Shown one piece after another: positions 3,001-27,893 of a stretch of 64,000 nt of DNA. The notes beneath the pieces are model-generated. The model was not told the origin of the DNA. It did not search any database and saw only the letters and a program-made list of their open reading frames with translations. The stretch is taken from positions 124,001-188,000 of the forward strand of contig CANRIS010000002.1 of NCBI GenBank assembly GCA_947630725.1, given 5' to 3'. Position 1 is the stretch's first letter, and the number at the start of each line of letters is the position of its first letter. This DNA comes from an uncultured Clostridia bacterium. Its GTDB lineage: Bacteria > Bacillota > Clostridia > Lachnospirales > CAG-274. A program made the translations under genes and the position numbers.

Positions 3001-5630
3001 AAGTTAAGCTCGCAGCCGTCAAAAATAACATCGCCGCTGCCGTATATGTAGTCTGTCTGACCCTCTATATAGCAGTTCTTATAATATGACTTGTGATTGT
3101 CTGTATTTGTTGTATAGAGAGTATCCTGACTGCCTAAGAAAGAGCAGTTATTAAACTCTATCTGATCTGCGTAGTTTACAAGAGCCGCAGCTCTCTCCGT
3201 AGCCTCTTTTGTATCTACATTTGTATTTTCTTTTCTGGCAACATTTATTGACTGAAGTCCGTTTGGCTCTACGCCGTCTGATATTTCTTCCTCTGTCATA
3301 TACTTGTTGAAAGAATTTTCAAATGTTACGTTCTCTGCTTTGAAGCCTGTGGCTGTCTTCTGAGTTATAACAGTAGCGCCCCAGTGTTTTTCAACATTGC
3401 CCTTTTCAAACTTGTCATAGTCTGCATAGGGGTCATATAAGTTGTTTACACAGCTATAATACTTATAGCCGATGCCATAATACCATGTTATCTTTGTGTC
3501 GTCCCTTGATGCACCCTCAAGAGTAATGTTAGGCGCATTTATATTAACCTGTTCGCGGTAGGTTCCGGGATCGAGCTTTATAACAACTCTTTCGTTTTTG
3601 GGTCTTGTCATAGCGGATACTGCATCCACAGCCGCCTGAACAGTCTTATAATCCTTGTCTTCGCCGACCGTAAGAGTATCTTTATATTCAACGGTCTTGG
3701 GCGTTGTGTCCTTAAGAAGAAGATCTCTCGTTACCGCTCCTCCCTTAACAACAACGTGAGTAGATGTGGAATATCCGTCTGCCGTTATCGAAGCGAGATA
3801 GCTTCCGTCTCTCAGAGAGGCTGTATATCCGCCCTTTGAAGGCGTACCCTCGTATTCATATTTGTCGTCTACATTTGTAAACTTTATTGCCGTGGGGGTA
3901 ACGTCGCTGAGCGTGTCATACTTTCCTCTTTCCTCTGTAAGACCTAAAAATCCTCCGCTTACGTTATATTTTTCAACGGGTATAAACTCAACGGGCTGAT
4001 CTACGGGGTCTGCCGTATCGTACTTTGCAGTGATCGCTTCTTTGAGCTTATAGTCCTTTGCGCCCTCTACGACAAGAGTATATTTTTCGCCTGCCGCAAG
4101 GAGAGCCGAATATGTAAGTCCATTCACATCAGCATTCTCATTGGGTTCTGTGACGGACGATGCGTTTGCATCATATGTGATCTCGCTCACCGAGAACGCA
4201 GTCTTTGACGCTGCAAGAGAATTGAGACTGAATGTTGACGTTTTTGAAGCTACCTTTTCGCCCGAAAGTGTGACAACATAGGGTGTGACCTTTATTTCGG
4301 CGTCAGGGTCTTCGATATCTGTTATTGTGAATGCATACAGATAGGGTTTTTTGAGATCATCGGATGTTACCTTGGAGCCTGCTATGGACGTATACACAAC
4401 ATTTGTGTTTTTGTCTGCACTCTTGCCGTCCGACTCAAACATAAAGCCTGCCTGCTTATATTTGAGGTTGTCAACGCCCGAAACAAAGCTTATTGCCTTG
4501 TCGCCCGAAAGCTCGGCCTTTACGCTGCCGTCATTGTCGCCGGGCGTTGTCTCCGATGTGGTTTCGGACGGATTTTCGGATGTCGTTGATGTTTCGGTCT
4601 CGGATGGGTTTTCAGGTGACGTTGACGTCTGGGCTTCGGAGGTAGTCTCCGAGGGTTCGTCCGAACCGTTTATGGTGGCCTTTACCCTGTCAAAGCTTGC
4701 CGAATCTTCGGGTACAAATATAAGGCTTAAGTCCGATGTGTCATAATCATCGGGAAGTCCCAGTATGTCGCCCGATATGGTATAAGAAACGCTCGCCTCT
4801 ATGGTAAGGTCCTTGCTGAGAGTGCCGTTGCCTGCCGAAACGCTTAAGCTTCTTGATTCGTTTGTGAACGAATAGGACGTAGCGATGCTGCCCACAAGAT
4901 TTACCGAATATTCGCCGGGCTTTAAGGATACCGAATATGAGCTGCCGTTCACGTCAATGATTTTTTCAATATCGGTAGTCTTTTCGATAAACTTGATCTT
5001 ATAGGGATCGGTGGGGAATGTGCCTGTAGAGTCGGTTATGGTACCCGATACCTCTCTGTAGGGCACAAAGCTTGCCTCATAGCATGCCATCTTTGAGCCT
5101 GTTACGGTAAAAAGATATGTATTTTCCTTTTCCGTCTCGATGTCAAGCTGCCACCCACTTTTTCCTGCGGTCTGCTTGAAAACGCCGGGAATATATACCG
5201 GATCCACAGCGCTGTTTGTGTTGAACTCAGCCAGCACTTCTACGGTACCGTCAGGCTTTACTGCGTTCAGATAGGCTGATTTGTCGTTGCTTGTGTTGGC
5301 AATGTTGATCGTAAAGGTTCCGTCAGACGCAGGCTTGAACTCTGCGTAGGAGCCTGCGCTCTTGTCTATGATTCCTTTGTTTGCTTTGCCGTTGCTGTTG
5401 TCTGAACGTATACCGTCACCGTTTTTAATGATTACGGTTGTGGGACTGTAATATGTGAGATCAAGTCCCTTATAGGTTGCTTTGCCGCTGTTAGTCTCAT
5501 TGGTTATCGTCCAGTTTCCGTTGACGATCTCCTCGGCAAATACCATTTGCTGAAATACGCCAAGTACCATAATTACAGACAGAAGAGCAGCCAGAACCCT
5601 CCTCAGTCTGTAAATACTTTGTTTGACCAT
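1..5630 (-). CDS. Secreted multidomain pectin esterase (pectinesterase CE8-like plus GDSL/SGNH rhamnogalacturonan acetylesterase CE12-like), C-terminus beyond window
   Basis: Open minus-strand frame from ATG at 5630 with SD ggagg; signal peptide MVKQSIYRLRRVLAALLSVIMVLGVFQQMVFAEE; pectinesterase-like stretch (YKTVQAAVDAVS..., FLGSQDTLYTT, CYIEGQTDYIYGSGDVIFDGC, GRMWG); SGNH block (IYLAGDSTVKDY, FIQFGHNDC, DGTHNN). No stop before position 1, so it is absent from the ORF track. Confidence 0.88.
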   Translation of the reverse strand, partial: MVKQSIYRLRRVLAALLSVIMVLGVFQQMVFAEEIVNGNWTITNETNSGKATYKGLDLTYYSPTTVIIKNGDGIRSDNSNGKANKGIIDKSAGSYAEFKPASDGTFTINIANTSNDKSAYLNAVKPDGTVEVLAEFNTNSAVDPVYIPGVFKQTAGKSGWQLDIETEKENTYLFTVTGSKMACYEASFVPYREVSGTITDSTGTFPTDPYKIKFIEKTTDIEKIIDVNGSSYSVSLKPGEYSVNLVGSIATSYSFTNESRSLSVSAGNGTLSKDLTIEASVSYTISGDILGLPDDYDTSDLSLIFVPEDSASFDRVKATINGSDEPSETTSEAQTSTSPENPSETETSTTSENPSETTSETTPGDNDGSVKAELSGDKAISFVSGVDNLKYKQAGFMFESDGKSADKNTNVVYTSIAGSKVTSDDLKKPYLYAFTITDIEDPDAEIKVTPYVVTLSGEKVASKTSTFSLNSLAASKTAFSVSEITYDANASSVTEPNENADVNGLTYSALLAAGEKYTLVVEGAKDYKLKEAITAKYDTADPVDQPVEFIPVEKYNVSGGFLGLTEERGKYDTLSDVTPTAIKFTNVDDKYEYEGTPSKGGYTASLRDGSYLASITADGYSTSTHVVVKGGAVTRDLLLKDTTPKTVEYKDTLTVGEDKDYKTVQAAVDAVSAMTRPKNERVVIKLDPGTYREQVNINAPNITLEGASRDDTKITWYYGIGYKYYSCVNNLYDPYADYDKFEKGNVEKHWGATVITQKTATGFKAENVTFENSFNKYMTEEEISDGVEPNGLQSINVARKENTNVDTKEATERAAALVNYADQIEFNNCSFLGSQDTLYTTNTDNHKSYYKNCYIEGQTDYIYGSGDVIFDGCELNFCGYDGTKSGGYITANSNSKKEDTYGYIFRGCYVSYNSERDTTPGGFGRMWGSCAKVAFLNTQLQDKDMIIPEGWSEMGDNKPTDPGVTLVEYNTTYNGEKVDTSKRVVAAKDSVNMDDYSVETVFIKNGWTPTYYTPETVSEIAFTEDPTFSTNGDPLLPNPGMKITVSYKLNVENDASLISWYAVDPDADRTSLDTMLQKSTLLSSGSAAASKTFQVPMECAGKYIMAVVTPISVSGLKGSPKYQINTNAPVSSEWSDPDDPGSIAPGSGINIYLAGDSTVKDYTNPSKRNEGSWGEFLQYFFESPDYVKVNNYAEGGRSLRLFLNEGKFDAIMQNIKEGDYLFIQFGHNDCANSKDSDYVENRFVPLFYPADQKCDSNFPTVQPDPSMKKDGRYTWDCGATYKGYLQYYIDHALEKGAIPVVVSPVSRLSYASDGTIKPHHDAGDSYDLTKDFATTNNAYVRACEEVYEANKDKGVLYLDGFGLTKKLYEDAYKDCKSDKNGYDIMTVSSEGKKDGTHNNKTGGVIIAGLIAKWIQDANIAPSKYVVQPETVYGENSDGEYIFTIEDSKFTAKNMNYEESSYWSQVGQELFDSLSGSVKEVNLNFGSDEALALYDTNAATTFDENGVYEGTYKNADGQRYRVSVYKDAISYYESTASYGTKAIKGKALFSFDAAEPGVYTVKATASTCDSASTVNLYSDSALGTSVADDAINKDEPGEIVYTKTTEGPETLYFSASVSNNLYISDVSISKEELPEVKPNKIYLDFTQQEAYDLYEGDATDYVDGVYTGTYTNDEGQKFEVSIYDSGIQYLNASSLQYGTKVSAGKPILSFVADEAAMYTIEYTKVNEGTLGLYKEQAANGTPAASGAPIIYKKADAAPETLYLAVCEGSNLYIPKVSIKKSELPKEELVLTKGSVNGIESTDSDIMLTLKGQTETKTISADEYKSTGVELIKGETYTVSAKGAKGVYKSATEIVGGSASADITLTRIEFDFPLEISA

Positions 5631-21969: not shown

Positions 21970-22671
21970 TCAGCCCGTTTTTTCCTCTGTTTTCTTCATA
22001 GGCGTTATCCTTATATTTTTTACGTCTATGCCCGTCTTTCTTTTGACTATATCCTGTATTTGGGCTGTTTCTGCGCTTGTCAGCTCCTCCTTTGACACCA
22101 CAACGTCCACAGTGTCGTCGTCTATCCTTACATATACCTCTTTAAAGCCCTTCGCCTCTATCATGGATTCGGCGGCTGTCTCCTTTTCAATCCTTTTCTG
22201 TATTTCAAGCATACTGTCGGCGCACTCCTGCTTTTTTGCCGTATCCAGATTTTCGTTTGAAAGCATTTCGGTGAGTATTTCCTTTTCTTTGGCTCTGGCC
22301 TGCTCTCTGCCGAGCTTTGCCTGAATGAAATAAGACGAATCGTTTGACGTATTTACAAAAACGGCTTTTCCCGCTTCATCGCCTGCCGAAGCCTCGGCGC
22401 CGCCCTCCTCGCTCACAGCCGCTGCGCTGTCGGCGTTTGCCGATGCCGATATTGAATCGCTGTCATACTCTATGGCTATATCATCGTCATAGTATATGTC
22501 CCCTGCGGCCTCAAGCTCGTCATAGCCATAGTCCGCAAGCTCGCCGTCCTCATTGAACATAAGCTCATGGGGCTTAAGCGTTGTTTTGTCTATGTAGCTC
22601 AGGTATCCGGCAACAGCCACCATTGCCACAAGCGCCGTTATTATCATCTGATTTTTTTTTAAAACAAACAT
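21970..22671 (-). CDS. spoIIIAH: Stage III sporulation protein AH
   Basis: Last gene of spoIIIA-like operon; N-terminal TM, charged region, C-terminal ring-building-like fold KEVYVRIDDDTVDVVVSKEELTSAETAQIQDIV. Confidence 0.9.
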   Translation of the reverse strand: MFVLKKNQMIITALVAMVAVAGYLSYIDKTTLKPHELMFNEDGELADYGYDELEAAGDIYYDDDIAIEYDSDSISASANADSAAAVSEEGGAEASAGDEAGKAVFVNTSNDSSYFIQAKLGREQARAKEKEILTEMLSNENLDTAKKQECADSMLEIQKRIEKETAAESMIEAKGFKEVYVRIDDDTVDVVVSKEELTSAETAQIQDIVKRKTGIDVKNIRITPMKKTEEKTG

Positions 22672-23211
22672 TTAGCTACCTCCCATTTTTAAAACTTCTG
22701 TTTTGTTTGCCTCTATTCCGAAAAGCGCTGTGCATCCGTTTATCAAGCTGCTCCTTATCCGCACATTCCCTCCTCCTTCGCAGGTTATAAGCACTCCCTC
22801 GACCTCCGGGCAGCTTCTGTTAATAATATATGGCGAGTTCCCTTGGGATAGAAGTACTTTTGTTTCTTCTCTTTCCAGGTTCCCTCCCGTTCCTCCGCTG
22901 CTTTTTTCTCTCTGTGTGTCCTCAGCCAGTCTTTTTTCGCCTTCGTCCTTGAATGTTATCATAACCTTTATCCTGCCCACCCCCTCCACAACGCCGAATA
23001 TGCCTTCAAGCTCTCTTTCCATACTGCGCCTGTAGTCCTCCCGAATATCCTCCGAAGAAACCTCATCCTCCTCATTGTCGGGAGCCCTCTCATCTCCGCC
23101 GTCAATAACCCCGCCTATAAGAATAAAGCCTATCCCAACGGCAATAGCTATAAATATATTTATAAACGTCTTTTTGTCCTTTTTTTCAAAAAGTTCTTTC
23201 AGAAATCCCAT
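22672..23211 (-). CDS. spoIIIAG: Stage III sporulation protein AG
   Basis: Position, N-terminal TM, GVGRIKVMITFKDEGEK...PEVEGVLITCEGG. Confidence 0.9.
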   Translation of the reverse strand: MGFLKELFEKKDKKTFINIFIAIAVGIGFILIGGVIDGGDERAPDNEEDEVSSEDIREDYRRSMERELEGIFGVVEGVGRIKVMITFKDEGEKRLAEDTQREKSSGGTGGNLEREETKVLLSQGNSPYIINRSCPEVEGVLITCEGGGNVRIRSSLINGCTALFGIEANKTEVLKMGGS

Positions 23212-23214
23212 ATT

Positions 23215-23709
23215 TCACTCAACCTCTCCGCAGAAAAATATTTTATCCTCTCCCACACCGAATATTGCCGAAAGCTCTCCTTTAAGACCTGTCGGGTCTG
23301 CGCCGGGCTTTTGCCTGCCCCATATGCGTATCTCCTCCACATCAAAATCATCTCCCAGAACAGCCTCCGCCCTGACACCCGAAAAGCATTCTCCGCAGAG
23401 ACTCTCAGCCCTCTCCTCTATAAGTCTTTTGTGTTCTTTTTGGGCTATTTCAGCCCCCTCCTCAAAGCCCTCTGCGCTTATAAGCGCCCTGCCAAGCTCT
23501 GCGCTGCGGCTGTATATATGATCCTCCAGATCGCTGCTCCCCATGCGGAACAGTCCTTCAAAGGGGCTCAGCATAATTATTATAAAAACTATGCCTATGA
23601 ACATATCCACATAACTTCTGAAGCTGCCCTTCGGCACGGCAAGCCTTATAAGAGATGCAAAAACAACAAAATATCCTACGTTTTTTATATATCCGCATAT
23701 CCACCCCAC
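23215..23709 (-). CDS. spoIIIAF: Stage III sporulation protein AF
   Basis: Position in operon; two N-terminal TM helices with PKGSFRSYVDMFIGIVFIIIMLSPF. Confidence 0.85.
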   Translation of the reverse strand: MGWICGYIKNVGYFVVFASLIRLAVPKGSFRSYVDMFIGIVFIIIMLSPFEGLFRMGSSDLEDHIYSRSAELGRALISAEGFEEGAEIAQKEHKRLIEERAESLCGECFSGVRAEAVLGDDFDVEEIRIWGRQKPGADPTGLKGELSAIFGVGEDKIFFCGEVE

Positions 23710-23738
23710 GGCTTATCCCCTCCGTTAGACTTTATATC

Positions 23739-24851
23739 TCATACTGCGGCAAAGGCTGCAAAAACAAGCACCGAAAACATAAATACATACGAAACAAGAA
23801 ACATAAGCCCCAGTATGAGCATACTGCAGTCGCCTATGCCGTCCACAAGGCCCGCTATTCTCTTTCCGCACACAGGCTCTATTATGCCTGCGGTCAGCTT
23901 GAATGCCGCCGCCGCAATAAACACCCTCAGAACGGGCAGAGAGGCATACAGAGCCAGAAGAACGATAAAAACTATGCCTGCTCCGCTTTTTATGCTGCCC
24001 AGAACCAGCATTCCCGTATCTATACTTCCCTTTATTATGTCTCCTGCCACAGGCACCATCTCAACCATTGTCTTTGCGCCCTTTCCTATAAGACCGCCTC
24101 CCGTTTCGGATGCCAGTCTGTAAAGCCCCGTTATAAATGTAAATCCTACGGCGCAGACCTTTATAGCGGCGCTCACCGCCGACTGAAGTGTGTCCGACAG
24201 CTTTTCGAGCATTTTCTCCTCGGTCAGATTGTTTATAATACACATAATAAGGGCAAGCTTCATAAGCGGCACAACTATATATTCAATGCTGTTTGTGACG
24301 GCTCCCGAACAGCCTGCCACAATACCGCTGTAACAGACCGCCTGAGCAGGACCTCCGCCTGCCGTTATGAGAGCCGTCATAAGCGGCAGCCCGCCCATCA
24401 TAATGTTGCTTATGCCGCCGCAAAAATCCTCCGCCAGCCCTATAAGGGACATAAAAACGCCCATACCGGTTCCCACGATAAGTATGTAGCATACCGCAAA
24501 GCCCGTTTCGGCAGCGTCCTTGTCGCCGAACGAAAGCATAAGGTTGTTGAGAAACCCTCCCAGAACCGCCGTTATAAAAAGACCTCCGAGAGAAAACAAT
24601 ATGCCTCTGCTCTCCCCCAGCAGCCTGTCCTTAAAATACTCCTTGGCAAGCTCAAAAAAATCGCTGCCGTTTCCCGCTGCGGCGTTGTATACCATTGTTC
24701 TGAAATCCACCCTGACCCCTGTACTATCTGCGAAAACGCTCTCTATTTTTGAAAAATCATATTCCGACAGCCTGCCGTCAAGATCCTCGGCATATATGTC
24801 TGTTTTCATAAAAATACATAAAAACAAAAAAACCGCAAGTACCCTTTTCAT
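23739..24851 (-). CDS. spoIIIAE: Stage III sporulation protein AE
   Basis: Multi-pass membrane protein of expected size and position. Confidence 0.92.
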   Translation of the reverse strand: MKRVLAVFLFLCIFMKTDIYAEDLDGRLSEYDFSKIESVFADSTGVRVDFRTMVYNAAAGNGSDFFELAKEYFKDRLLGESRGILFSLGGLFITAVLGGFLNNLMLSFGDKDAAETGFAVCYILIVGTGMGVFMSLIGLAEDFCGGISNIMMGGLPLMTALITAGGGPAQAVCYSGIVAGCSGAVTNSIEYIVVPLMKLALIMCIINNLTEEKMLEKLSDTLQSAVSAAIKVCAVGFTFITGLYRLASETGGGLIGKGAKTMVEMVPVAGDIIKGSIDTGMLVLGSIKSGAGIVFIVLLALYASLPVLRVFIAAAAFKLTAGIIEPVCGKRIAGLVDGIGDCSMLILGLMFLVSYVFMFSVLVFAAFAAV

Positions 24852-24864
24852 ATGTACTCCCTTT

Positions 24865-25251
24865 CTACGGCAGAAGTTCGCTAAGCATATCCAAAAGCCC
24901 CGTAATAACGGGAATGGAATATATGAGAATGATTATTTTTCCGCCAAGCTCTATTTTGTCCCCTATGGAGGATTCTCCGAAATCCCTGCATACCCCTGCC
25001 CCGAATGAAGAAATATAGGCTGCGGCGGTTATTTTGAGTATAAGTCTCACATAGCCCTTTTCTCCCGCAAGCATACCGTTTATCCTGTCCAGAAGATAAA
25101 AAACAGCCTTAAGCTCGGGCAGCACAAACCCCAAAATGACGACCCCCGCAGCTATGCTGACTGCCATGGCAAGCTGCGGATTCTCTTTTTTAAGAGCAAC
25201 GGAAAGCACCGCTCCTATGAGCCCCACCGCCGTAATTCTGTATATGTCCAT
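24865..25251 (-). CDS. spoIIIAD: Stage III sporulation protein AD
   Basis: Position; FGAGVCRDFGESSIGDKIELGGKIIIL. Confidence 0.93.
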   Translation of the reverse strand: MDIYRITAVGLIGAVLSVALKKENPQLAMAVSIAAGVVILGFVLPELKAVFYLLDRINGMLAGEKGYVRLILKITAAAYISSFGAGVCRDFGESSIGDKIELGGKIIILIYSIPVITGLLDMLSELLP

Positions 25252-25260
25252 ATTTGTTCC

Positions 25261-25455
25261 TCACAAATTAAAAATCGTCTCCATAGTATTGAAAAGCTCG
25301 CTTATATACTGTATGAGCCAGAAAAGCACCACCACAAGCCCCGCAAGGGTAGTCATCATGGCCTGTTCTTCTCTGCCTGCCCGTATAAGCACCTGATTCA
25401 GCACCGCAACAAGTATGCCCGTTGCGGCGATTTTAAAAATTATCTGTATATCCAT
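25261..25455 (-). CDS. spoIIIAC: Stage III sporulation protein AC
   Basis: 64 aa, two TM; position between AB and AD. Confidence 0.92.
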   Translation of the reverse strand: MDIQIIFKIAATGILVAVLNQVLIRAGREEQAMMTTLAGLVVVLFWLIQYISELFNTMETIFNL

Positions 25456-25469
25456 ATGTCAAGACCCCC

Positions 25470-25982
25470 TTACAAAAGCATAACCACCGCAAGTATGCCT
25501 CCCAAAACCGAACAGCTTCTGTACAGTCTTTTTGTACCTGCGGCCTCGAGAGCAAGCTCCTTTATTTTTCTGTCCATATAGCCATAAAGAACATCTATGC
25601 CCTTCTGCTGTTTTTCGGTATCGAATCCCTGAAGGATCCTTCCGAGAGGATACAGACTGCGTATGTCCTCCGCCTTGAAAAATGTGCTTTCGTATCTGTC
25701 CGTGAGCGCCCTTATCCACGCCCTGTCTATGCTTTCTCCGTTTCTGAGCCTTTGTGAAAAATCCGCAAATATGCCCTTTATGGGTTCTCTCAGCCTGTCC
25801 GCTACGGTTTCTGCGGATATATACACGGGCGCAAGTCTCATTTCAAGATCCCCCGTAAGAAAGCCTATGCCAAGCTCAAGCTCGGCGAGCTGATCTCTTC
25901 TGAATTCTGTTCGCATACCGAAATACTCGCCCAGAATAAGGCTGCCGAGTATTACGGTCACAGCGCCTGCAAGCCTAAGCAT
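25470..25982 (-). CDS. spoIIIAB: Stage III sporulation protein AB
   Basis: MLRLAGAVTVILGSLILGEYFG start, position. Confidence 0.9.
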   Translation of the reverse strand: MLRLAGAVTVILGSLILGEYFGMRTEFRRDQLAELELGIGFLTGDLEMRLAPVYISAETVADRLREPIKGIFADFSQRLRNGESIDRAWIRALTDRYESTFFKAEDIRSLYPLGRILQGFDTEKQQKGIDVLYGYMDRKIKELALEAAGTKRLYRSCSVLGGILAVVMLL

Positions 25983-26787
25983 ATATTTTCTTTATTCTCC
26001 CTTCTCCTTTTTTTCCTTCGAGAACGACCTTGCACTCAAAAAGCTCTCCAAGCTCACTGTCGGGTCGGTCTCCGTGCAGGGTGGCTATGACCCCAACCCC
26101 CATATAAGAGGCTCGCCTTATGGCGTCTCTGTCCTCTCTGCCGCCAAGCTCGTCCACGGCTATTATGTCGGGAGAAAGTCCCCTCACAAGTATTTCAACT
26201 GCCTTTGACTTAGGACACCCCTCCATAACGTCCGTCCTTATCCCCAGATCCCTAAAGCAGTCAAGCTCTCCTCTTTCATCGCAGACCCCCAGCGTATAGC
26301 CCCTTTCGCTCAGGCTCCTTACGGTGTCTCTCAGAATGGTGGTTTTTCCGCAGCCGGGAGGAGAAATTATGACCGTGCTGCGAAAGCCCTTGTCATAAAG
26401 TCTCATAAGCTCCCTTGCGCAGCCCACAACATTTTCGGGTATCCTTATATTTAGGGACGTGCAGTCGGTAATCGTTTTAAGCCGATCTCCATCAACGACA
26501 GCCCTGCCGCAGACCCCCACTCTGAAACCCCCCTTAAGGGTGATAAAGCCGTTTCTTATTTCTTCTCTGAAAGCAAACGCCGAATATTCGGACATTTTGG
26601 ACAGCGTGTCGCTTATCTCACCACAGCCAAGACGCAGTCTCAGCACCTTTTCTCTGCGGCCGTATCTGAGTATAACGGGCTTGTCCGCTCTTATGCGTAT
26701 TTCGTTAAGACCGTCAATGCCCTCGCAGAGTATGGCCTCCGCTGCTTCGGCCTCAAAATATCTTTTTATAATGTCTCGGATCATCAT
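25975..26787 (-). CDS. spoIIIAA: Stage III sporulation protein AA (ATPase)
   Basis: NEIRIRADKPVIL, ISPPGCGKTTILRD Walker A, VCDERGEL, DIIAVDELGG. Confidence 0.95.
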   Translation of the reverse strand: MMIRDIIKRYFEAEAAEAILCEGIDGLNEIRIRADKPVILRYGRREKVLRLRLGCGEISDTLSKMSEYSAFAFREEIRNGFITLKGGFRVGVCGRAVVDGDRLKTITDCTSLNIRIPENVVGCARELMRLYDKGFRSTVIISPPGCGKTTILRDTVRSLSERGYTLGVCDERGELDCFRDLGIRTDVMEGCPKSKAVEILVRGLSPDIIAVDELGGREDRDAIRRASYMGVGVIATLHGDRPDSELGELFECKVVLEGKKGEGRIKKIYA

Positions 26788-26866: not shown

Positions 26867-26952
26867 TTTTAAATGCAGGTCATATATTTAGGTAAACGCC
26901 GATATAAGGAATCGGGCGTTTTCACAGATAAAACTACAGAAAAGGTGATAAA

Positions 26953-27360
26953 ATGGACGACCGCAACAATATAGGCGGCAGAGCGCCCCAAAGAACGGCA
27001 GGAAGTCTGAGAGCGTCAAGAAAAAAGACCCCTCGCCGCAAAAGGGCATCGGGAGCCGAAAAAAGCAGCTTTATAGTGCGTTTCAACATAGCTCTCACAC
27101 TTACAGCCGCTGTACTTCTTATGTCAAAAATAAATACGGAGCTTACAAGCAGCATAACCGCCAAGGCTGTCTCTGTCATTTCACAGGGGGCTTCTCTTTC
27201 GGATATAAAGGCAAAGGCCGAGGAGATTTATGCGGGGCTTCTGGGAGATGACGACGAAAGGGCAGTATTTTCTGAGGACAACGATGCGGATATAGAAAAA
27301 AGCATAACAGAGCAGATAGACCGTGAACGTGAAATGGAGGAAAACCTAAAAAATCAATAA
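26953..27360 (+). CDS. Membrane-anchored N-terminal part of SpoIIQ-like protein (zero-frame product)
   Basis: Basic N-terminus, TM FNIALTLTAAVLLM, coiled/charged segment; SD aaaggtg; stops right before the M23 ORF in the -1 frame. Confidence 0.7.
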   Translation: MDDRNNIGGRAPQRTAGSLRASRKKTPRRKRASGAEKSSFIVRFNIALTLTAAVLLMSKINTELTSSITAKAVSVISQGASLSDIKAKAEEIYAGLLGDDDERAVFSEDNDADIEKSITEQIDREREMEENLKNQ

Positions 27361-27391
27361 GCGCCGTTCGTTTATACTATACGGGCGGCGC
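27348..27391 (+). promoter_or_regulatory. Candidate programmed -1 ribosomal frameshift signal
   Basis: A_AAA_AAT (27348-27354), 6-nt spacer CAATAA including zero-frame stop, then 10-bp stem gcgccgttcg/cgggcggcgc (27361-27391); GGAGG at 27336-27340. Confidence 0.55.
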
Positions 27392-27404
27392 TGCAAAAGA
27401 TAAA

Positions 27405-27893
27405 ATGTCTCTTATAATAAAGGCTGTGCCGTCACTCAGGGTCTTTGACGTAAGAGGCAGCAATGAGCTTGCGCTTTCGGTTTCGGCACCAAAGCCCGAG
27501 GGGTGGCTTTTTCCCGTTGAAAACGGTATAATAACATCGGGCTTCGGCGACAGGACAAGCCCCATTTCGGGCAGCGCCGAGACCCACAACGGTGTGGATA
27601 TTGCCGTTCCCGAGGGTACCGAGGTAAGGGCTGTTTCGGACGGAATAATCACATCGGCAGGACTTTCGGAAAGCTACGGACTATTCATAAGGGAACAGAC
27701 CGATGACGGCTATACGGCTTTATACGCCCACCTTTCCGCCCACAAAATATCCGAGGGCGAAAGGGTCGAAAGAGGCTCTCTGATAGCCCTTTCGGGGCAT
27801 ACGGGCTGGACGACAGGCCCTCATCTTCATCTTACGGCCGAAAAGAACGGACAGGCATTCGACCCTATGACAATGTATAAAGAGCTTGGCTGA
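27405..27893 (+). CDS. M23 (LytM-type) peptidase domain, -1 frame relative to the upstream ORF
   Basis: GIITSGFGDR, THNGVDIA, ALYAHLS, GHTGWTTGPHLHL; frame stays open upstream to 27333; no convincing SD before ATG 27405. Confidence 0.85.
   Translation: MSLIIKAVPSLRVFDVRGSNELALSVSAPKPEGWLFPVENGIITSGFGDRTSPISGSAETHNGVDIAVPEGTEVRAVSDGIITSAGLSESYGLFIREQTDDGYTALYAHLSAHKISEGERVERGSLIALSGHTGWTTGPHLHLTAEKNGQAFDPMTMYKELG

Follow-up and report, generated by a model that had tools for sequence, protein, structure and literature searches.

Next to the spoIIIA operon of an uncultured Clostridia bacterium, a short ORF coding for a TM protein ends, and an M23 (LytM) peptidase domain follows in a different frame. 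Do these ORFs code for two proteins, or do ribosomes change frame and join them in a single one? In the latter case, which sporulation protein is it? We have analyzed the complete 64,000 nt stretch of DNA which contains this locus (the window), and we have compared the locus with related genomes. The comparison makes it very probable that both ORFs are a single spoIVFA-type gene, with a TM anchor, a linker and a LytM domain, and that its expression depends on a programmed -1 ribosomal frameshift. The features of the locus are the following:

26941-26949, + strand: SD of ORF1, AAAGGTGAT (sequence)
26953-27360, + strand: ORF1, with a basic N-terminus, a single TM (residues 40-58, approximately) and then a linker; the zero-frame product has 135 aa
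27336-27340, + strand: GGAGG, an SD-like element 7 nt 5' of the slippery heptamer (sequence)
27348-27354, + strand: slippery heptamer A_AAA_AAT (sequence)
27354-27893, + strand: -1 frame extension, consisting of linker and M23 (LytM) domain, with a TGA stop at 27891-27893
27358-27360, + strand: UAA, zero-frame stop (sequence)
27360-27392, + strand: putative 3' stimulator stem-loop, 12 bp (27360-27371 with 27381-27392) and a 9 nt loop (fold, compensatory changes)
27405-27503, + strand: 33 aa insertion between the shift site and the M23 domain, carrying the ATG at 27405 (alignment)
27582-27866, + strand: Peptidase_M23 domain with intact zinc ligands HNGVD and HLH (Pfam PF01551, 99 bits)
21970-26787, - strand: spoIIIA operon, the divergently transcribed neighbour, from AA (25975-26787) to AH (21970-22671) (Pfam Spore_III_AA, SpoIIIAC/AD, AE, AH)

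A preliminary description of this DNA had placed the TM ORF and the M23 part in different frames, and its coordinates agree with the sequence. The zero frame of ORF1 ends with gaa aac cta aaa aat caa taa. The slippery heptamer and the GGAGG are found as described. The hairpin announced after the heptamer is also present, but it has 12 bp starting at 27360 and a 9 nt loop, instead of 10 bp from 27361 and an 11 nt loop. Likewise, only 5 nt separate the heptamer from the stem, not 6. From 27333 onwards the -1 frame has no stop before the TGA at 27891-27893, and the predicted fusion has 313 aa and a junction peptide LKNSISAVR, both already given in that description, as were the intact zinc ligands. 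The split gene is flanked by spoIIIAA and, on the other side, by a small lipoprotein-like ORF. A AAAGGTGA-like SD precedes ORF1 in most of the relatives whose DNA we have read. Nothing in the window matches a known RNA element of Rfam.

How strong is this signal? Three dnaX-type features are present: an X_XXY_YYZ heptamer in the zero frame which allows re-pairing in both the P and A sites, a 3' stem and an upstream SD-like element. The downstream stem has an MFE of -21.2 kcal/mol, compared with a shuffle mean of -10.2 (z -4.38), a value which none of 200 shuffles reaches. There are 27 in-frame A_AAA_AAN sites in the ORFs of the window: The downstream fold of the site at 27348 is the strongest of all, and just one more of these sites is found 10 codons or fewer from a stop. 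The codon which precedes AAA AAT is CTA, whose A is the first base of the heptamer; it accounts for just 16 of 1394 Leu codons (1%) in the ORFs of the 64 kb window, from which codon usage was computed. The exact dnaX heptamer, A_AAA_AAG, is absent from the genus of the window, which has AAU or AAC instead, and is found in other genera (L144, L206, L245, L264, L231). In E. coli, A_AAA_AAC is a weaker shift site than A_AAA_AAG (PMC5009743).

The split gene is found in all nine genomes of the genus (g1); in one of them, G004, the contig starts within ORF1. The eight relatives are 62-68% identical to the window in the M23 part and have the short frame again. The order of the parts is common to all nine: TM ORF, GAGG, CTA AAA AAY, one codon, stop, stem and M23 in the -1 frame. 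The heptamer is A_AAA_AAC in the other eight species, compared with A_AAA_AAT in the window, and the zero-frame stop is UAA, once UGA. The comparison of orthologues which had been proposed leaves heptamer, nearby stop and stem in place in 9/9 genomes, and none of them has an altered A run giving a single ORF. The stem has z values of -3.5 to -5.5 in the eight genus loci measured, and two of its pairs show compensatory changes: G-C becomes A-U in four species, and C-G becomes A-U at the other pair in three.

Codon usage points to the same elements. Eighteen columns of ORF1 have an invariant amino acid (excluding M and W), and only three of them are also identical at the codon level: GAG, CTA and AAA. 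The nine species are related and do not represent nine independent draws, but elsewhere their synonymous divergence is high, with dS above 1 in several pairs. These three positions are precisely the signal: GAG in the SD-like element, and then CTA and AAA; the GAGG upstream of the heptamer and the CTA at the shift site are both present in 9/9 genomes. The dN/dS ratios within the genus are 0.08-0.20 for ORF1 and 0.07-0.19 for the M23 frame. Since they are low in both frames, neither half is a pseudogene, and both reading frames are, judging from these ratios, under purifying selection. The conserved cassette, the covariation, the constraint on a rare codon and the scarcity of alternative starts give strong comparative support to the programmed -1 frameshift which had been proposed for this locus. 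Each of the three refuting observations named in the preliminary description was looked for, and none of them overturns it.

We have extended the comparison to the whole order, apparently Lachnospirales, by a profile search of 392 genomes, reading the DNA of 128 loci. A -1 shift is needed in 74 of these and a +1 shift in 36; fifteen are single ORFs, and three are unclear, two of them owing to contig ends. The 110 split loci are broken at the same protein boundary and are spread over ten families and about 42 genera, a count which does not include f6, the largest family, whose orthologues are below the search threshold. Most of the loci we have inspected outside the order consist of one uninterrupted ORF of 200-330 aa which starts with a TM, and in many cases an ORF containing HExxH comes immediately after it.

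Could the two ORFs code for separate proteins which interact, the M23 part being translated from its own start, either the ATG at 27405 or by termination-reinitiation? This ATG does exist in the window, and G008 has an ATG overlapping its zero-frame stop; in these cases reinitiation could play a part. Moreover, in 31/110 split loci the M23 frame contains an ATG at some point before the domain. Nevertheless, the ATG at 27405 has no SD, as had been pointed out, and it lies in the 33 aa insertion (27405-27503), which the alignment shows in the window genome only and in none of its genus relatives. Because of this ATG, the M23 part resembles a separate ORF. The window and G008 are the exceptions in the genus: The other seven of the nine genomes have no ATG, GTG or TTG in the M23 frame before the domain. 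The same absence is found in 47/110 split loci of the order, and ATG is missing in 79. By itself, the M23 part would lack both a TM anchor and an obvious signal for export. In addition, reinitiation predicts neither an invariant CTA AAA AAY nor a fixed relation between frame and type of site. We consider separate translation very improbable.

An assembly error or a decaying pseudogene should also be considered: Most of the genomes are drafts in several contigs, and A runs are a typical place for a wrong indel of one base. However, 110 loci share this break, among them those of single-contig genomes (such as G037, G083, G150 and G268) and of a culturable isolate, Anaerotignum propionicum DFI.7.94 (Lachnospirales, Anaerotignaceae). 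Its locus (L036, match at 3001) is split with a TCG CCC TAG junction, which requires a +1 shift, and the species falls within f17 on the M23 tree, the reason for which we take the order to be, apparently, Lachnospirales. A sequencing indel is ruled out by the same break in 9/9 genus genomes and the 110 loci of the order. The dN/dS of 0.07-0.20 over both frames and the invariant zinc ligands speak against decay. The probability of this explanation is negligible.

Under programmed frameshifting, our preferred explanation, the sites fit the direction of the shift. In the 36 loci which need a +1 shift, found in f17, f1 g4 and f5 g120, the last codon of ORF1 and the stop are CCC-UAG (34), CCC-UGA (1) or UUU-UAG (1), and the P-site tRNA is able to re-pair one base forward at all of them. 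These sites have no stem (z near 0) and no long homopolymer. Several have GAGGA or GGAGGA 3-4 nt upstream (g83, several g27), and the SD-like element is weak in g64 and g90. On the other hand, 50 of the 74 loci which need a -1 shift have an in-phase X_XXY_YYZ heptamer in the overlap, compared with 15.8 expected from equal stretches of the same ORFs; in the family of the window the heptamer is found in 25/27 of the -1 loci. Several types exist: A_AAA_AAC/U (g1, g9), A_AAA_AAA-UAG followed by a stem (g10, 8 species), A_AAA_AAG (g5, f16, f10, f25, f7), A8 with a stem (g3), A9 (g8) and U_UUG_GGG (f24). Stems with z values of -1.7 to -4.6 are found 3' of other A-type -1 sites, both in the window family (g3, g9, g10) and in other families (g15, g20, g35, g48). 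As far as can be read from these junctions, the direction of the predicted shift matches the type of site across the order.

No classical heptamer is present in 24/74 of the -1 loci. In f5, several candidate sites (A_AAC_CCN, G_GGG) are found within a long overlap. An inverted repeat, CCACAG(A)TTCCGG .. CCGGAACTGTGG-like, is also found in the ORF overlap at the f5 junction (L267, L265, L271 and others), possibly another stimulator. In f17 g98 (L218, L223, L230, L232) the M23 frame is offset by -1, and three of the four loci have neither a slippery tetramer (Z_ZZN) nor a heptamer in the overlap; the fourth, L218, has only a distant A_AAC. The junction ends with GAA TAG CC in 3/4 of the g98 loci.

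The A runs raise another explanation: RNA polymerase, and not the ribosome, might restore the frame by slippage. Such slippage has been described in bacteria for runs of 9 A (PMC5009743), and g8 has precisely an A9 run without a stem. Nevertheless, the window and its genus have only A6, invariably preceded by an SD-like element and followed after 5 nt by a stem, the layout of a ribosomal shift, and the lack of long homopolymers at the +1 sites does not fit slippage either. We consider this very improbable as an account of the locus, although slippage may operate in g8.

The predicted frameshifting at one boundary has two directions in this order, and their history may be followed in the tree of the M23 domain. 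On this tree (136 rows, 141 columns, many weak forks) the three states, -1, +1 and single ORF, need 10 changes, at least three of which, for +1, are forced by well-supported branches. Since these branches force the +1 changes, the direction of the predicted shift has switched. Single-ORF states are nested in split clades: g6, beside the +1 genus g4, and members of f5 g45. The shift site thus appears, from these sequences, to have been rebuilt several times by evolution, as -1 or as +1, at one protein boundary. Within the window family, g4 (L131, L133, L136, L140) uses the +1 site UCU CCC UAG, and its sister g6 has a single in-frame ORF. A different case is g7, which retains only the TM/linker ORF, 5' of SpoIVFB, terminating where the shift site is found in the others; a LytM domain does not follow. 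The short product may therefore be useful alone. The g7 ORFs are:

L304, 2121-2600, - strand: TM/linker ORF
L305, 2501-3010, - strand: TM/linker ORF
L306, 3151-3603, + strand: TM/linker ORF

Which protein does this gene code for? The preliminary description chose a SpoIIQ-like label because the gene adjoins spoIIIA in the genus of the window. Both synteny and the scores of the models have led us to reject this identity. The gene is directly 5' of an M50 protease in the sister genera g2-g5 and g8-g10 and in part of g6, a protease with the layout of SpoIVFB, so it occupies the position of spoIVFA. A radical-SAM gene (Pfam) is found beyond the SpoIVFB-like gene in several genera. DUF2344-like and RNase-G-like ORFs are found there as well, names given by reading the sequence alone. 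The NCBIfam SpoIIQ model gives only 33.6 bits to the M23 domain of the window (cut-off 250, rank 11), compared with 54.1 bits (rank 1) for a 284 aa M23 protein which this genome encodes elsewhere, on contig C1. This protein (L161:5725-6579; G000 C1:99751-100044), the better SpoIIQ candidate of the genome, adjoins rho and not spoIID. The clostridial SpoIIQ gene sits between spoIID and spoIIID. The split gene does not match this neighbourhood: It is found with spoIIIAA and a small ORF in the window, and with M50 and radical-SAM genes in the sister genera.

By hydropathy and Pfam, the predicted fusion matches the layout of SpoIVFA: a cytosolic N-terminus, a single TM and an extracytoplasmic LytM domain. 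The zinc ligands are invariant in the family alignment of the M23 part. No SpoIVFA model is found among the Pfam or NCBIfam matches of the gene. The position upstream of SpoIVFB in sister genera and the model scores support a spoIVFA-type assignment in place of SpoIIQ. According to Galperin et al. 2012 (PMC3533761), clostridia carry non-orthologous LytM proteins at the spoIVFA place, and no frameshift is mentioned there.

The genus of the window differs in its partners. A protein query for SpoIVFB gives 0/9 genomes, and the same query, as a control, finds it in 30/48 genomes of the family. A divergent SpoIVFB in G000 has also been considered and rejected: There are only an RseP-like M50 protein (357 aa) and a sub-threshold 203 aa match without HExxH. 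BofA is found in 9/9 genomes of the genus (weak matches) and SpoIVB (S55) in 6/9. As SpoIVFB is undetected, BofA and SpoIVB are kept and the gene adjoins spoIIIAA, the partner of the split gene may have changed in this genus.

The mechanism we propose would operate as follows. Ribosomes would reach CTA AAA AAU with an anti-SD contact at GGAGG and a 12 bp stem 5 nt downstream. Part of them would stop at UAA, giving a 135 aa anchored protein without LytM, and the remaining ribosomes would re-pair one base back and produce the 313 aa protein, which would place a LytM domain with complete zinc ligands in the intermembrane space. The cell probably makes use of the two products, at a ratio which may be constant or regulated. 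The gene would be one of many orthologues spread over the order, whose common break is crossed by shifting either -1 or +1. We infer the occurrence of the shift in the cell and its efficiency, and also that the ratio would matter for the SpoIVFB/sigma-K checkpoint. This role in sigma-K activation is uncertain in the genus of the window, because SpoIVFB is not detected there: The ratio would perhaps matter for the SpoIIIA complex instead, the SpoIIIA proteins being equally possible as partners.

The B. subtilis protein offers a clue about the short product. Its TM contacts BofA, and models put the segment between the TM and the C-terminal domain over the gate of SpoIVFB; SpoIVB and CtpB cut SpoIVFA in that segment, releasing the SpoIVFB protease (PMC9042235, PMC12632252). 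Here, too, it is between TM and C-terminal domain that the frame changes, so the short stub would resemble the cut form, and recoding could then set the level of the checkpoint. This leads to a wider proposal, which we regard as possible and distinctly tentative: Most of the order would make two SpoIVFA-type isoforms by recoding, whose ratio sets or gates SpoIVFB, the output being kept and the mechanism swapped. As parts of this same tentative whole, the short isoform would end near the SpoIVB/CtpB cut of the Bacillus protein and act as if pre-cleaved; the ratio, sensitive to zero-frame termination, would govern SpoIVFB activation and the late sporulation programme; and decoding would have been replaced repeatedly (-1 with a stem, -1 on long A/G runs, +1 on CCC-UAG), g7 having the short isoform only.

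Recoding of this sporulation gene seems to be undescribed: In the open-licence literature, including GeneTack clusters and work on frameshifting in Clostridia, we have found no prior report for SpoIIQ or SpoIVFA. It could control the timing of spore formation. SpoIVFA has been reported from two spore-forming Clostridia only (PMC12632252). These scarce reports may be explained by annotation, since a gene which is split and has diverged is readily taken for a pseudogene or for two ORFs without any relation. PMC12632252 leaves open if SpoIVFB is regulated in Clostridia and by what means, which can now be tested directly.

Few conserved frameshifts are known in ordinary chromosomal genes of bacteria: prfB, dnaX and a handful more. 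A developmental gene found in many genera of a single order, with a direction which appears to have switched several times at one boundary, would serve as a natural experiment on the reasons for which recoding persists. The closest likeness is to dnaX of E. coli, which shares the upstream SD-like element, the A_AAA_AAN heptamer, the 3' stem-loop and two products with a common N-terminus. Nevertheless, the A-site codon is AAC or AAU here and AAG in dnaX; the shift would give the longer product here, as the zero frame ends soon after the site, and the reverse is true of dnaX, which codes for a polymerase subunit and not for a sporulation membrane protein. The +1 orthologues are reminiscent of prfB (release factor 2), since they put a re-pairable P-site codon before the stop, some with GAGGA or GGAGGA 3-4 nt upstream. 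However, they have CCC-UAG instead of CUU-UGA, so the stop would be decoded by RF1; the SD-like element is not universal among them, and autoregulation is not expected. CCC followed by a stop is also found in the tsh gene of Listeria phages PSA, A118 and A500, whose +1 shift site is CCC_UGA (PMC5009743), but this is a phage gene, and here the sites are chromosomal and mostly CCC-UAG.

As regards the protein, SpoIIQ of bacilli and clostridia also combines a TM with an M23 domain, and the gene adjoins the spoIIIA operon in the window genus, as noted, but the score with the SpoIIQ model is weak, the genome contains a better-fitting gene, and the sister genera group the split gene with SpoIVFB. 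In B. subtilis, one ORF codes for the whole of SpoIVFA, whose LytM domain is degenerate (PMC3533761), and here the zinc ligands are intact. SpoIVFA has a single TM followed by an extracytoplasmic LytM-type domain, as predicted here, and the gene is found upstream of spoIVFB in our sister genera. The break between TM/linker and C-terminal domain corresponds to the region which SpoIVB and CtpB cut in B. subtilis (PMC12632252, PMC9042235).
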